This document shows positions 13,304-22,631 of a stretch of 64,000 nucleotides of DNA, one piece after another. Source of the stretch: a bacterium (GTDB taxonomy: Bacteria > Armatimonadota > Fimbriimonadia > Fimbriimonadales > Fimbriimonadaceae); NCBI GenBank assembly GCA_013823945.1, contig PNMZ01000002.1, forward strand, positions 558,001 to 622,000, given 5' to 3'. The notes beneath the pieces were generated by a model. It did not search any database and was not told the origin of the DNA. It saw only the letters and a program-made list of their open reading frames with translations. A program made the position numbers and the translations under genes. The stretch's first letter is position 1. Each line of letters starts with the position of its first letter.

Positions 13304-15040
13304 ATGACCGCTAACCACGAGAATGAACTCGCTCACTCATCAATTTGGGATATCCAAACAACCGATGAAACCGCTGCGACCGCTCTCATCCAGGAACTGA
13401 ATCTTGAACCCATTGTTGCGCGACTTCTCGTTCAACGAGGGTTCACCACTCCAGAATCCGCCGAGCAATTCCTCACGCCCAATCTCGAAGATCTCACCCT
13501 CCCTTCGCTTCTTCCCGATTTCGAGAAAGCCAAAGCCGCCTTGCTCAACGCACGTGACAAGCAGGAAAAAATTTATATTCACGGCGATTACGACGTCGAT
13601 GGAGTGACGTCTGCCGCTATTCTTTACCGATTTCTTGACCGGACAGGATTTATTGTTGAGGGCCACGTCCCCCACCGAGAAGCCGAAGGCTACGGAATAC
13701 ACATTGACACCGTGCGGCGAGCACATGCCTGTGGTGCCAAACTCATATTGACGTGCGACTGTGGCACATCCAGCCATACTCAACTCGAAGCCGCCTATGA
13801 GCTGGGTATGAAGGTCGTCATCACCGACCACCACGAGAGCCCGGCAATTCTTCCTCCAGCCGAAGCAATTGTCAATCCTAAACGACGTGATTTCACCGGC
13901 CCCGGAGGAGAACTCTCAGGCGCTGGAATAGCATTTCTCTTCTGCCTCGGTCTCTGCGACGATCTTGGAATCAAGCCGGAAACCTACTTTCGAAATTTCC
14001 TAGACCTAGCCGTAATGGGCACAGTTGCCGATGTGATGCCCCTTCACTTGAACAATCGTATCATCGCCCGCCACGGACTGCCTGCCCTTCACGCCACCCA
14101 GAAGAAAGGTCTCCGCGCTCTCCTTCGAGTTTCAAATCTGGATGATTTCAGCGTCAAGCTCACCACCCGCCATATTGGATTCCAAATCGGACCAAGAATC
14201 AATGCCGTTGGACGTATTGACGATGCAGATGTCGCATTCCGGCTCCTGACCACCAACGACGCCAAAGAAGGCACCGAGCTTGCTGAGTTTCTTGACCGGA
14301 AGAATCAAGAAAGGAGGTCACTTCAAGATGCACTCGTTGAAGAAGCTACAGCAAAAATCATCGCCGAAGGACTCGACAAGAACTCTGCAATCGTTGTTGC
14401 CGGGGAGAATTGGCAGAAAGGCATTGTCGGAATCGTGGCGGGCAAGGTCACTGAAAAGTTTCGACGCCCCGCATTCGTCCTCGGGATTCACGGTGACCAA
14501 GCGACTGGCTCCGCCCGATCAATCCCCGCATTCAACTTATTCGATGCCATCGAAGCTAATCGCGGCCTGATCATCAAAGGAGGAGGTCACGCCGCCGCTG
14601 CTGGTGTCACGATCGCCGTTGCGAACCTAGAAGCCTTTCAAAACGCAATCAATGAATTTGCTCAAAATCTCCTTCAACCAGAAGACTTCTTGCCTCGAAT
14701 CCGAATCGATCAACCGATCACACTTCCAGAAACTTCCCTTGCCCTAGCCCAATCAATCGCCCAGCTCGAACCATTTGGCGAAGCGAACCCCGAACCCCAA
14801 TTCCTCATGCCGGGCGTCCACCTAGCCACCAACAATCCAACTCGAAACCCCATTCACACCCGGGTTCTTCTTAAATCTGGATCTGAAGACCGGATGGCTA
14901 TGGCCTTCGGCCTCGGCGAGCAGTTTGCCGAAATTCCTCTCCAAACTAAAATAGATACAGTCGTGAATATTGAAGAAGATCAATTCAATGGAAAAAAACG
15001 CCTAAAAATGGTTGTCCGCGATTTCCGCCTAGCCGAGTAA
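13304..15040 (+). CDS. recJ: Single-stranded-DNA-specific 5'-3' exonuclease RecJ
   Basis: A 578-residue protein, the usual length. The DHH phosphoesterase motifs are present: 'IYIHGDYDVDGVTSAAIL' (about residues 86-103), 'CDCGTS' and 'VITDHHESP' (about 172-180, the DHH motif). The DHHA1 domain carries 'GGGHAAAAGVTIAV' (about 426-439), and an OB-like C-terminal domain follows. RecJ degrades 5' ends of single-stranded DNA in recombination and repair. The gene ends in a 12-base overlap with the convergent PDZ protein gene. A tract of about 54 bases without a clear promoter precedes it. Confidence 0.95.
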   Translation: MTANHENELAHSSIWDIQTTDETAATALIQELNLEPIVARLLVQRGFTTPESAEQFLTPNLEDLTLPSLLPDFEKAKAALLNARDKQEKIYIHGDYDVDGVTSAAILYRFLDRTGFIVEGHVPHREAEGYGIHIDTVRRAHACGAKLILTCDCGTSSHTQLEAAYELGMKVVITDHHESPAILPPAEAIVNPKRRDFTGPGGELSGAGIAFLFCLGLCDDLGIKPETYFRNFLDLAVMGTVADVMPLHLNNRIIARHGLPALHATQKKGLRALLRVSNLDDFSVKLTTRHIGFQIGPRINAVGRIDDADVAFRLLTTNDAKEGTELAEFLDRKNQERRSLQDALVEEATAKIIAEGLDKNSAIVVAGENWQKGIVGIVAGKVTEKFRRPAFVLGIHGDQATGSARSIPAFNLFDAIEANRGLIIKGGGHAAAAGVTIAVANLEAFQNAINEFAQNLLQPEDFLPRIRIDQPITLPETSLALAQSIAQLEPFGEANPEPQFLMPGVHLATNNPTRNPIHTRVLLKSGSEDRMAMAFGLGEQFAEIPLQTKIDTVVNIEEDQFNGKKRLKMVVRDFRLAE

Positions 15041-16057
15041 GCGTCCCTTCACACCTACCGTCATCTTAACTTCCATCTGCTTCCCACCCCGATAGATGCG
15101 CATTGTCAGCTCACTCCCTGGCTCAACACCGAATAAGAGTGCCGCAAGGTCAACCACGTTTCCAACCGGCGTTCCGTTTGCCGTCATGATCAAATCGCCC
15201 GGCTTCAATCCCGCCAAATCACTCGGACTCCCCGGAGTCACCTCATCAACAACCACTTGCCCCGGTCCGTCTCCAGCTCGGAAAAAGAGCCCGACGCTGG
15301 GATGCTCAACCTTATGATCATCCCGCTGAAATCCAGCAACGACTCGGTTCAAGATTTTTGAACCGAGGGCATAAGCTACGGTCAAGCCTTGTGGACCAAA
15401 TCCATTTCGAACCTTCTGGGTCTGGCCCGCATCTCCCCCCGCTGCCAAATTCATTGCGCTGGTTTGAGGCATATCAGGCTGAAGAATCGCGCCAAGAATC
15501 CCCACCATCGCCCCTGAATTGTCGAAAACAATTGCTCCCCCCATTGGGACATCCTTCGTTTCAAACTGAATCTCTGCCAGAGGCACAAATCGCTGACTGG
15601 GCATCAAAATTCCCGGACGATCATCACTCGTCAACATCCCACGAACCGCACCCTGAACAGTCGCGACCATCATTTCCCCTGGTTTTGTTTGGGGGGCCAA
15701 CCGAACTGCTTGCCGCTTGCCCGCTACCCAATTGTGTGCTCCAAGCAAAACCAAGCTGGTCTCCTTGTCGTACCCAATCCGCCCCAGCTTAACTTCGACC
15801 CCACCGCTCAATTTCGCCGTTAACGGTTCAAAAACCAAACTTGAAGCATGAGCCACAAAATATCCCCGATCATCAATTAAAACCGCAACCCCAAACGGGT
15901 TCCCGTTGATGTCGGGAAGAACCGCAAGGGAATCTACAACCGAGGCCCAAGCCGCATTCTGATACGGCCCAATAGGCACCAATGGCGTCTCAATAATGTT
16001 CCGCTCTTGAGTGACAACCTGAGAAGCCAGTAAGACACTAACCGCCAAAGACCACAT
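15029..16057 (-). CDS. HtrA-like PDZ protein, catalytically dead
   Basis: A 342-residue exported protein with a trypsin-like domain and a C-terminal PDZ domain (about 260-340, 'VDEVTPGSPSDLAGLKPGDLIMTANG'). A short signal peptide starts at ATG 16057, which is preceded by GGAGGT 11 bases upstream; an upstream ATG at 16120 would overlap the previous gene by 83 bases. The protease landmarks are recognisable but altered. His is kept ('GYFVAHASS', H70). The Asp position reads 'KETSLVLL' (S101 where HtrA has D), and the serine loop reads 'VPMGGAIVFDNSG' with Met172 where HtrA has the nucleophile. It is therefore probably a sensor or adaptor, not a protease. It is the third gene of a sigma/anti-sigma group. 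Confidence 0.8.
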   Translation of the reverse strand: MWSLAVSVLLASQVVTQERNIIETPLVPIGPYQNAAWASVVDSLAVLPDINGNPFGVAVLIDDRGYFVAHASSLVFEPLTAKLSGGVEVKLGRIGYDKETSLVLLGAHNWVAGKRQAVRLAPQTKPGEMMVATVQGAVRGMLTSDDRPGILMPSQRFVPLAEIQFETKDVPMGGAIVFDNSGAMVGILGAILQPDMPQTSAMNLAAGGDAGQTQKVRNGFGPQGLTVAYALGSKILNRVVAGFQRDDHKVEHPSVGLFFRAGDGPGQVVVDEVTPGSPSDLAGLKPGDLIMTANGTPVGNVVDLAALLFGVEPGSELTMRIYRGGKQMEVKMTVGVKGRLLG

Positions 16058-16994
16058 TTCGCTTATCGACCTCCGTTGCCGCACTCGCCCGAGTTTGGGG
16101 ATCCGTCCCCGCACCAACAATCACAACTTTTCCGGCTTCACCCATTCCTACCGGTGCCGCCATCATCGCTCCCGGCGTTGCATTGTCTGCCGATTCTCGT
16201 CGACTAAATCCCTCAATTGCTCCCGCCGCAATGCTCGCCACTGCCGAAGACGCCGAAGAACCTCTGTCAACCGTAACACCAGATCCAACACCACCACGTC
16301 CATCAATCTTCGCCGAAATATCCGCCCCCGACATCGTTAAGGAAGCCCCATTCGAGACAGGTTGAGCAGACGCATAGCGTGGAGCTTGGCTTCGCTTCGG
16401 CGTACGTCTTACTTGACTCCGTACTCCGGATCGATTTGCCCTGCTGACTTCGCCTTGAGCCGGCTCCCCAGCTCCAGAATTCAAAGCACCACCATTTGAT
16501 GACTGAGGAGCAGTATTGGGTTGTGAGATACCCAACTCTTGCTCAATTCTCGGTTGACGACTCGCATCCATCCGCGCCATCGGCGAGATTCCGTGCGTTT
16601 CGACCCCCATACTTGCGACCACCGGCGAACTTTCTCCATTACCGGTCGTGACTACACGGTTTGGATTCATTAAGAAGACCGCAAGGGCCGCACAGGCCGC
16701 AACCGGCAATGCAAACCGCCCCCAACTGGCAAACCAAGACGTCCGGGCTTCGGGAATACCTTGGCCCAAGATCGCATCCTTTACCCGAGAAGAGTTCAGT
16801 TGGCATTCTGGAATGTCGCCAAGTGCCTTGAGTTCCGACTTAAGGTTCCCCAAAACCACCAACTCTTGTGCCATCGCCTGAGTCACTTCCCCACCATCAC
16901 CCGCATCCAGCAACTGCTGATCCCCTGCTTCTTCTTCGCCAAAAACTCTGCGGAAAAGCGCATCCATTTGTTCGTTTGTCATCTTGTTATCCAC
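16038..16994 (-). CDS. Membrane-anchored putative anti-sigma factor with low-complexity outer tail
   Basis: A 318-residue protein. The N-terminal 90 residues are acidic and helical and would lie in the cytoplasm ('QAMAQELVVLGNLKSELKALG'). One membrane helix follows at about residues 93-108 ('FALPVAACAALAVFLM'). The rest is a Gly/Ser/Ala-rich tail with Arg-rich patches, probably outside the membrane and largely unfolded. The GTG start lies 2 bases after the stop of the ECF sigma gene, and its end overlaps the pseudo-HtrA gene by 20 bases. Order and topology resemble RseA-type anti-sigma factors, but no known anti-sigma motif is clear. Confidence 0.7.
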   Translation of the reverse strand: MDNKMTNEQMDALFRRVFGEEEAGDQQLLDAGDGGEVTQAMAQELVVLGNLKSELKALGDIPECQLNSSRVKDAILGQGIPEARTSWFASWGRFALPVAACAALAVFLMNPNRVVTTGNGESSPVVASMGVETHGISPMARMDASRQPRIEQELGISQPNTAPQSSNGGALNSGAGEPAQGEVSRANRSGVRSQVRRTPKRSQAPRYASAQPVSNGASLTMSGADISAKIDGRGGVGSGVTVDRGSSASSAVASIAAGAIEGFSRRESADNATPGAMMAAPVGMGEAGKVVIVGAGTDPQTRASAATEVDKRNVVFGG

Positions 16995-16995
16995 G

Positions 16996-17640
16996 TTATT
17001 CCCCCCCCATCAAAGGTGCCAGTCGATCCCGCAACGCACGCCGTGCCCGCAATACGCGGAGCTTTGCTCCTCCCACTGAGCAACCAAAAAAGTCGGCAAT
17101 TGCATCGTATTCCATCTCTTGAATGTCTCGAAAAACCACCGCATTGCGATGATGTTCCGGCAGCGAGGCAATTGCTTCTCTGAGCAATTCTCGCGTTTGT
17201 TCTCGTTCCAAATTCTTTATCGGGTCTTCACCGATGTTCCCCACGGTCATCCAGGTCAGGGCACCCGCCGATTCTCGCGTTTCGAGCTTCTGACGCCGAT
17301 TTGACATCCGGGCTTTGTCTGTACCGAGGTTAGCGGTGATCCGCAAAAGCCAAGTCGTGAACTTTGCTTCATCTCGGTACCGCTTCAAATTCTGATAAGC
17401 CTTAACAAACACTTCCTGAACAATATCTTCCGCATCGTCGCGTCGAGGAGCCATTTGGTATGCATAGCGGTAGACCAAATCGCGGTGACGATCAAACAGA
17501 CGTTCAAACGCCGAAAAGTCACCGTTGCGCGCTTGCCACACCAAGGCCTCATCCGAATCAGGAGCCAGTCCCGCCGGAATCGCTTTGGATCGTTCGCTCA
17601 TTGGCGGCTGATCAAATCTCAATGCACTCCTCAAAGCCAT
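16996..17640 (-). CDS. ECF RNA polymerase sigma factor (third of three)
   Basis: A 214-residue sigma factor close to the SigW/RpoE style. Region 2 reads 'RHRDLVYRYAYQMAPRRDDAEDIVQEVFVKAYQNLKRYRD' (about 50-90) with 'FTTWLLRITANLGTDKAR'; region 4 reads 'LPEHHRNAVVFRDIQEMEYDAIADFFGCSVGGAKLRVLRARRALRDRL'. The start is uncertain: ATG at 17640 or the in-frame ATG at 17601 ('MSERSKAIPAG'). It is the first gene of a minus-strand group with a membrane anti-sigma-like protein and a pseudo-HtrA protein, which points to an envelope-stress response; this last step is inference. Confidence 0.93.
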   Translation of the reverse strand: MALRSALRFDQPPMSERSKAIPAGLAPDSDEALVWQARNGDFSAFERLFDRHRDLVYRYAYQMAPRRDDAEDIVQEVFVKAYQNLKRYRDEAKFTTWLLRITANLGTDKARMSNRRQKLETRESAGALTWMTVGNIGEDPIKNLEREQTRELLREAIASLPEHHRNAVVFRDIQEMEYDAIADFFGCSVGGAKLRVLRARRALRDRLAPLMGGE

Positions 17641-17703
17641 CTTACATTAACTCAAACGAACCAAGTTCCGCCGAGTTACTGAAATAACCTTCTCACGGTA
17701 GGA

Positions 17704-21986: not shown

Positions 21987-22631
21987 CTACTTACTTCTCT
22001 TACGAAGAGCAGCCAAAGCCGCGACTCCCAAAATAGTCAGAGTAGCTGGCTCCGGAACTGCTTCCTGAGAAAACACAAGCTCGCGCCCCGCGGTATTCCA
22101 ACCATTGTTCCAAGTCACAGTCAAGCTTTCTCCTACGACTGACGGAAAAGTGATAAGAGTATTGGTCGTTCCGTCCGGAATGCCCTGCCAGTTGAACAGC
22201 TCAGCGTTTGTACCATCAAGTACCCTAAACGTCGTTACCAAGGGTGACCCGTTCCAATCCGCCAACCGAATGGACCGCAACCGAACCAAGAAACCAGGAT
22301 CTGCCGTCAAAGTGAACGAAACTGGAGTCGCATCTGATGTTGAAGAACTAGTCGAGTTCCGTCCCCATATTGCAGTTGGAAGATCACCATACCCAGTACC
22401 CCAAAGTCCAACATTATTCGTGTAATCAAGAACGACATTGGGTGTAAAACCACCCTCGGAGCCATAGGCAAGGCCACCTTGCGACACTGATGTGACACGA
22501 TCTCCGTAGTCTTCGAGTTGCGTCTGACTGATAACAGCCCCCGAATCTGTCGCAAAAAGCAGATTCGTTGCCGCAGCGACTCCTGATGCCACAACCATCC
22601 CCCCGATGCTAAGTAATTTTGTCAATGTCAT
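21987..22631 (-). CDS. PEP-CTERM sorting domain protein
   Basis: A 214-residue exported protein. The N-terminal signal peptide is 'MTLTKLLSIGGMVVASGVAAAT', a beta-rich body follows, and the C-terminus is the canonical PEP-CTERM tripartite signal: 'VPEPATL', a hydrophobic helix 'TILGVAALAAL', and a basic tail 'RKRSK'. Such proteins are processed by an exosortase and placed on the cell surface or in the extracellular matrix. No exosortase gene is in the window. RBS AGAGGA precedes the ATG. The function of the body is unknown. Confidence 0.9.
   Translation of the reverse strand: MTLTKLLSIGGMVVASGVAAATNLLFATDSGAVISQTQLEDYGDRVTSVSQGGLAYGSEGGFTPNVVLDYTNNVGLWGTGYGDLPTAIWGRNSTSSSTSDATPVSFTLTADPGFLVRLRSIRLADWNGSPLVTTFRVLDGTNAELFNWQGIPDGTTNTLITFPSVVGESLTVTWNNGWNTAGRELVFSQEAVPEPATLTILGVAALAALRKRSK

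Follow-up and report, generated by a model that had tools for sequence, protein, structure and literature searches.

A catalytically dead HtrA-like protein in an ECF sigma factor operon of the Armatimonadota, and its possible role in anti-sigma control

The operon and its sigma and anti-sigma proteins

The window that we analyzed is a stretch of 64,000 nucleotides from a Fimbriimonadaceae genome of the phylum Armatimonadota (contig PNMZ01000002.1, positions 558,001 to 622,000). We identified in it three adjoining genes, on the minus strand as are all coordinates below unless stated otherwise, which encode an ECF sigma factor (16996..17640, 214 aa), a putative single-pass anti-sigma factor (16038..16994, 318 aa) and a catalytically dead HtrA-like protein with an N-terminal hydrophobic segment (15029..16057, 342 aa). 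Gene order, strand and coordinates agree with the initial annotation of this DNA, which had also described an overlap of 20 bases between the anti-sigma end and the HtrA-like start, exact at 16038..16057. The gap of two bases that it placed between the sigma and anti-sigma genes is a single base (16995) with the GTG start that is used, and an internal ATG at 17601 is a possible alternative start of the sigma gene.

Of 81 loci (window included), 78 have the sigma gene upstream in the same orientation, and the remaining three are at contig ends. No fourth operon gene common to the relatives was found, and no protease gene within the sigma/anti-sigma/pseudo-HtrA operon. Of 73 loci, 44 have a member of a single recJ-like cluster as the next gene, which is convergent in the window. 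Just 5' of the sigma gene (17641-17700) stands GGAACTT, which resembles an ECF-type -35 element. Autoregulation through a conserved ECF promoter is not supported: 31 of 65 relatives (a set that includes the window and leaves out 8 further loci without an anchor) have GGAAC upstream, at no fixed place, where shuffling gives a mean of 19.3, and no conserved operon promoter was found among them. Elsewhere in the window, another ECF sigma-like frame lies on the plus strand at 719-1222 (G000:C2:558719-559222, E 8.6e-29), and the protein at 21987-22631 has, by eye, a PEP-CTERM-like C-terminus.

The first protein, with close orthologues across the class, matches Pfam Sigma70_r2 (1.3e-18) and Sigma70_r4_2 (5.7e-11); it contains sigma regions 2 and 4 only and scores above the cut-offs of Pfam and of NCBIfam sigma70-ECF, which supports its original designation as an ECF sigma factor. 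The second protein probably acts as its anti-sigma factor, as judged from gene position and from orthology to zinc-finger anti-sigmas of relatives. One TM-like segment (about 16668-16724; hydropathy KD19 1.75 at residue 91) separates an N-terminal, presumptive sigma-binding part whose zinc ligands are lost (16740-16994) from a long low-complexity outer part, in keeping with the membrane anti-sigma with a long disordered tail that had been claimed. The protein has no Pfam family match and on this account falls outside the zinc-finger anti-sigma (ZAS/zf-HC2) class, while an H...C..C ligand pattern is visible by eye in the anti-sigma orthologues of other families and zf-HC2 itself is matched at locus L154.

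Loss of the protease active site and spread of the family

We identified a PDZ domain in the third protein from the single sequence (Pfam PDZ_2, 7.5e-13), while its trypsin-like part (15473..15925, residues about 45-195) was missed by the same scan. Among 36 relatives Pfam recognizes the PDZ domain in all 36 and Trypsin_2 in only 17. A profile of these relatives aligns with the structures of DegP, DegQ, DegS and HtrA (best E 9.1e-45), so that the protein is an HtrA by descent through a profile relation over both domains, and the trypsin-like fold plus PDZ reported earlier is borne out.

The triad of an active serine protease of this type (TNxH, D, GNSGG) is absent from the window protein. By profile and multiple alignments, the site of the catalytic His is Ser72 (15842-15844), that of the Asp is Ser101 (15755-15757) and that of the Ser is Gly173 or Met172 (15539-15544). 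The initial annotation had recognized the loss of catalysis and had named Ser101 correctly, but it counted two lost residues and a retained His70. This His70 sits at the Asn of TNxH, two positions ahead of the catalytic site, and since the catalytic His corresponds to Ser72, all three residues are gone. Likewise, the third site was rightly read as non-Ser, although its assignment to Met172 requires a shift of one residue and the ungapped alignment gives Gly173. The nearby Asp97 is a structural Asp that is also found in 12 of 14 motif-intact HtrAs. An alignment artefact was rejected as the cause of the lost triad, since realigning moves the Ser site to Gly173 and restores no residue; no alignment that brings back both Ser and Asp was found.

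The substitutions are fixed among relatives. In a 99-row alignment of pseudo-HtrAs, which includes two partial genes (L172, L178), no row has the catalytic His or the full triad, and thus no orthologue with an intact triad stands at the same operon position; a simple motif search finds no His region in L268 or L273. Single triad residues persist, with the Asp in seven rows of family f2 and two of f1, and the Ser in f13 and f19 plus a few other rows, while Asp or Glu occupies the His column in 29 of the 99 rows. An acidic residue is often seen at this site in families f2-f5, f13 and f19 (e.g. L048, L061, L147, and L154), and the pattern suggests that the acidic substitution may be ancestral and may have preceded drift of the site in f1. 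The three triad positions are variable within the window's family. The gene as a whole is under purifying selection (six of eight pairs gave an estimate, with dN/dS from 0.006 to 0.172), and gene decay is ruled out by these low values. The third gene therefore encodes a genuine HtrA relative in which the absence of an active site is fixed.

Some match is present in 111 of the 113 genomes of the class, and 100 of the 113 match the family profile at 1e-40 or better. Loci with wide flanks were taken in three sets (80 from the 113 class genomes, then 35 more, then 6), and most counts leave out the near-duplicates L034, L035, L076, L080, L108, and L111. The same phylum includes two distant families, f13 and f19, that have the same order of sigma factor, zinc-finger-like anti-sigma and triad-less HtrA. 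These observations support the view that the pseudo-protease is no local accident and has been kept with the same sigma and anti-sigma throughout the class and in both distant families. In a tree built from 34 pseudo-HtrAs and 14 motif-intact HtrAs (the latter picked for intact motifs, their 14 of 14 being so by construction), the pseudo group occupies one side of a branch with 100/99 support; as an unrooted split, this is consistent with a single ancient loss.

Two complete, reduced genomes (G068 and G069) have neither a close sigma orthologue nor a pseudo-HtrA, and six fragmented genomes of 68 to 91% completeness (G011, G033, G038, G045, G058, and G100) lack both at high score. A close sigma orthologue is present in G010, G034, G040, G096, and G105, where the operon is partly seen or cut by contig ends. 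A protein 98% identical is recorded in Armatimonadetes bacterium Uphvl-Ar1. Beyond the phylum the search consisted of a peptide-pattern scan alone, and its matches were two Armatimonadota records.

The conserved anti-sigma C-terminus and the PDZ domain

The outer part of the anti-sigma consists of a linker (about 16131-16661) and a C-terminal element of 30 residues (16041..16130) that runs from a hydrophobic strand through ...A.EV... to ...VVFGG-COOH. Across the 62 loci of the window's family in which the anti-sigma frame was taken, the conservation profile of the linker is variable while the extreme C-terminus is conserved, with a hydrophobic strand, D..TGA..A.EV and a hydrophobic run to Gly-Gly. 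This conserved C-terminus beside a variable linker is new relative to the initial annotation. Gly-Gly ends 51 of the 62 anti-sigmas, compared with 13 among 520 background ORFs (the remaining ORFs of 250 aa or more at these loci; raw counts that ignore kinship), and at least one such tail occurs in 22 of 29 genera of f1 and in 4 of 5 of f2.

We considered whether the gene overlap or a Shine-Dalgarno sequence could by itself account for the conserved tail and rejected both. Within the overlap, codon positions 1, 2 and 3 of the anti-sigma frame carry 0.99, 0.35 and 1.33 bits, the third varying most. Because third positions are the noisiest, selection acts on the anti-sigma frame of the overlap; were the HtrA frame the driver, these same positions, which are its second positions, would be the quietest, and the opposite is observed. 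Moreover, GGAG or GAGG precedes the HtrA-like start in only 16 of 62 loci, of 12 loci that lack a start codon at the usual place 9 retain the Gly-Gly end, and tails persist in families that have no overlap.

Other families end differently (raw counts, kinship ignored): Ser-Phe in 10 of 10 tails of the sister family f3, Tyr in 6 of 7 and Trp in one of f13, and Val-Glu in 5 of 5 of f19, which is a single genus. The f3 tails (L056-L060, L164, L165, and L168-L170) resemble the Phe-terminal ends of BamA-type outer-membrane proteins. In 9 of the 10 genomes sampled such proteins were identified, and of 14 examined 11 have a C-terminal Phe and 3 a C-terminal Tyr. An outer-membrane-protein-like tail is not supported for the window's family, in which the anti-sigma ends in Gly-Gly whereas the BamA-type protein of the window genome ends in Ser-Phe.

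The PDZ domain of the pseudo-HtrA (15053..15301, residues about 253-335) is delimited by Pfam, by a predicted model and by structure matches. Modelled alone from three sequences, it reaches a pLDDT of 80.7, while the full-length prediction, also from three sequences, has a pLDDT of 46.5. The PDZ model superimposes on the PDZ domains of HtrA and Ctp proteins with Z scores of 12.4 to 14.3 and rmsd values of 1.3 to 2.9 across 82 to 94 residues, including the peptide-bound domains of DegS, AlgW, HtrA2, and HtrA3 (Z 12.6-14.0). By profile and predicted model, then, the PDZ fold is intact. It is hardly better conserved overall (2.25 bits) than the trypsin-like part (2.33 bits). The best conserved part is residues 221-262 (1.76 bits), which extends into the PDZ domain and ends in HP..G.FF, at a site that we take to form the ligand carboxylate-binding loop in HtrA PDZ domains. 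The Gly-Gly end of the window's family differs from the YxF signature bound by the PDZ domain of DegS (PMC8545111).

A possible role in anti-sigma control and its alternatives

In the textbook anti-sigma circuit the HtrA member is the protease that cuts. The operon resembles the RpoE/RseA/RseB/DegS circuit of E. coli, in which an ECF sigma factor, a single-pass anti-sigma, an outer guard and a PDZ-bearing HtrA work together (PMC8103513), in that it combines an ECF sigma factor, a single-pass anti-sigma and an HtrA with a PDZ domain. It differs in that the HtrA is dead and lies inside the operon, no RseB-family protein is encoded there, and the free C-terminus of the anti-sigma is conserved; no MucB_RseB match was found among the Pfam matches of the window HtrA-like protein or its 36 relatives. 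A second, canonical-looking operon of the same genome (L167; contig C1, 394000-400500) has an ECF sigma factor, a zf-HC2 anti-sigma, a protein with a weak likeness to RseB (MucB_RseB_C at E 6.5e-4, where 20.2 bits fall below the cut-off of 30.1) and an HtrA. It shares with the window operon the succession of ECF sigma, then anti-sigma and HtrA, while its HtrA is larger (505 aa) and has the triad intact. The genome also encodes an M50 (RseP-type) protease, several Trypsin_2 proteins and a Prc-type protease. The usual anti-sigma-cutting machinery therefore exists alongside the pseudo-HtrA operon, which adds to it.

Because the HtrA look-alike lacks the cutting residues and the anti-sigma tail is conserved, control is likely exerted by binding and not by cutting. 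We tentatively propose, as possible though a little short of probable, an envelope-stress sigma switch in which a dead HtrA has been repurposed as a non-proteolytic, RseB-like guard that grips the anti-sigma tail. The initial annotation had already suggested that a pseudo-protease may bind this tail through its PDZ domain, working by protection or presentation, and the conservation of the last anti-sigma residues beside an unconserved linker lends indirect support to such a grip. The single-pass anti-sigma would hold the ECF sigma at the membrane, its long flexible outer linker ending in the conserved element with a free C-terminus, and gene overlap would couple production of the pseudo-HtrA to that of the anti-sigma. 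The intact PDZ groove would grip this C-terminus and guard the anti-sigma from the site-1 protease, as RseB does for RseA. Release would come from a signal that either competes for the PDZ domain or draws the pseudo-HtrA away; the anti-sigma would then be open to attack by a true HtrA or a C-terminal processing protease and afterwards by the RseP-type protease, whereby the sigma factor is freed. Tail binding, guarding, the signal and the downstream proteases are the steps that we infer here; a guard would be the most economical reading, with a presenting role nearly as compatible.

The tail could instead serve another PDZ protein. Specifically, it may be a handle by which a true HtrA or a Prc/CtpA-type protease starts the destruction of the anti-sigma, the pseudo-HtrA being a presenting adaptor or allosteric partner. 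The Prc-type protease (258.7 bits) and the triad-intact HtrAs of the genome would be available for this task, and MamO of magnetotactic bacteria, a dead HtrA-type protein, activates proteolysis by MamE (PMC4794232). We nevertheless consider this account unlikely, though not far-fetched, as the type of tail (Gly-Gly, Ser-Phe, Tyr, or Val-Glu) changes together with the family of the pseudo-HtrA, whose gene adjoins that of the anti-sigma in an operon that holds no protease gene. Alternatively, the pseudo-HtrA might be a general chaperone of the periplasm whose sole tie to sigma is co-transcription, the tail being conserved for some other reason. HtrA proteins such as DegP do act as chaperones as well. 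The strict linkage of the pseudo-HtrA to this sigma/anti-sigma pair, together with the two complete small genomes that lack both it and the close sigma orthologue, makes us regard a chaperone as quite improbable. Residual cutting through an unusual site would draw on the acidic residues at the His column of 29 rows and on the Ser that persists in both distant families and in a few other rows. We know of no trypsin-fold protease with such a site, and in the window protein all three positions are replaced and vary within its family, which leaves this idea with hardly any credence.

Precedents for parts of the proposed guard exist in other systems. MamO likewise is of HtrA type with a degenerate active site, and it has non-catalytic roles (PMC4794232); it differs in serving biomineralization and metal binding, without a link to a sigma factor. 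In the AlgW/MucA/MucB circuit of Pseudomonas aeruginosa an HtrA PDZ domain recognizes C-termini, although AlgW is catalytic and is activated by the tails of outer-membrane proteins or MucE and not by the anti-sigma's own tail (PMC8545111). No published description of a sigma/anti-sigma/dead-HtrA system was found in the literature searched, whose coverage leaves out most subscription journals.

A broader hypothesis, which we think rather unlikely as it stands, is that of an ancient, phylum-wide envelope sensor, with a protease converted to a receptor, in which the PDZ domain of the dead HtrA holds the anti-sigma tail and envelope damage is sensed by competition for the groove, e.g. from misfolded outer-membrane protein C-termini. 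If this were true, the Ser-Phe tails of f3, which are like the Phe-ending outer-membrane proteins of these genomes, would show such mimicry directly. Across the whole order and beyond, the scaffold, the PDZ domain and the place in the operon have been kept and catalysis has been discarded, while the anti-sigma tail has been retained. If tail and pseudo-HtrA do bind, the system, whose short peptide and small domain make it readily open to experiment, would be a clean natural case of a pseudoprotease acting as a receptor in sigma-factor control.
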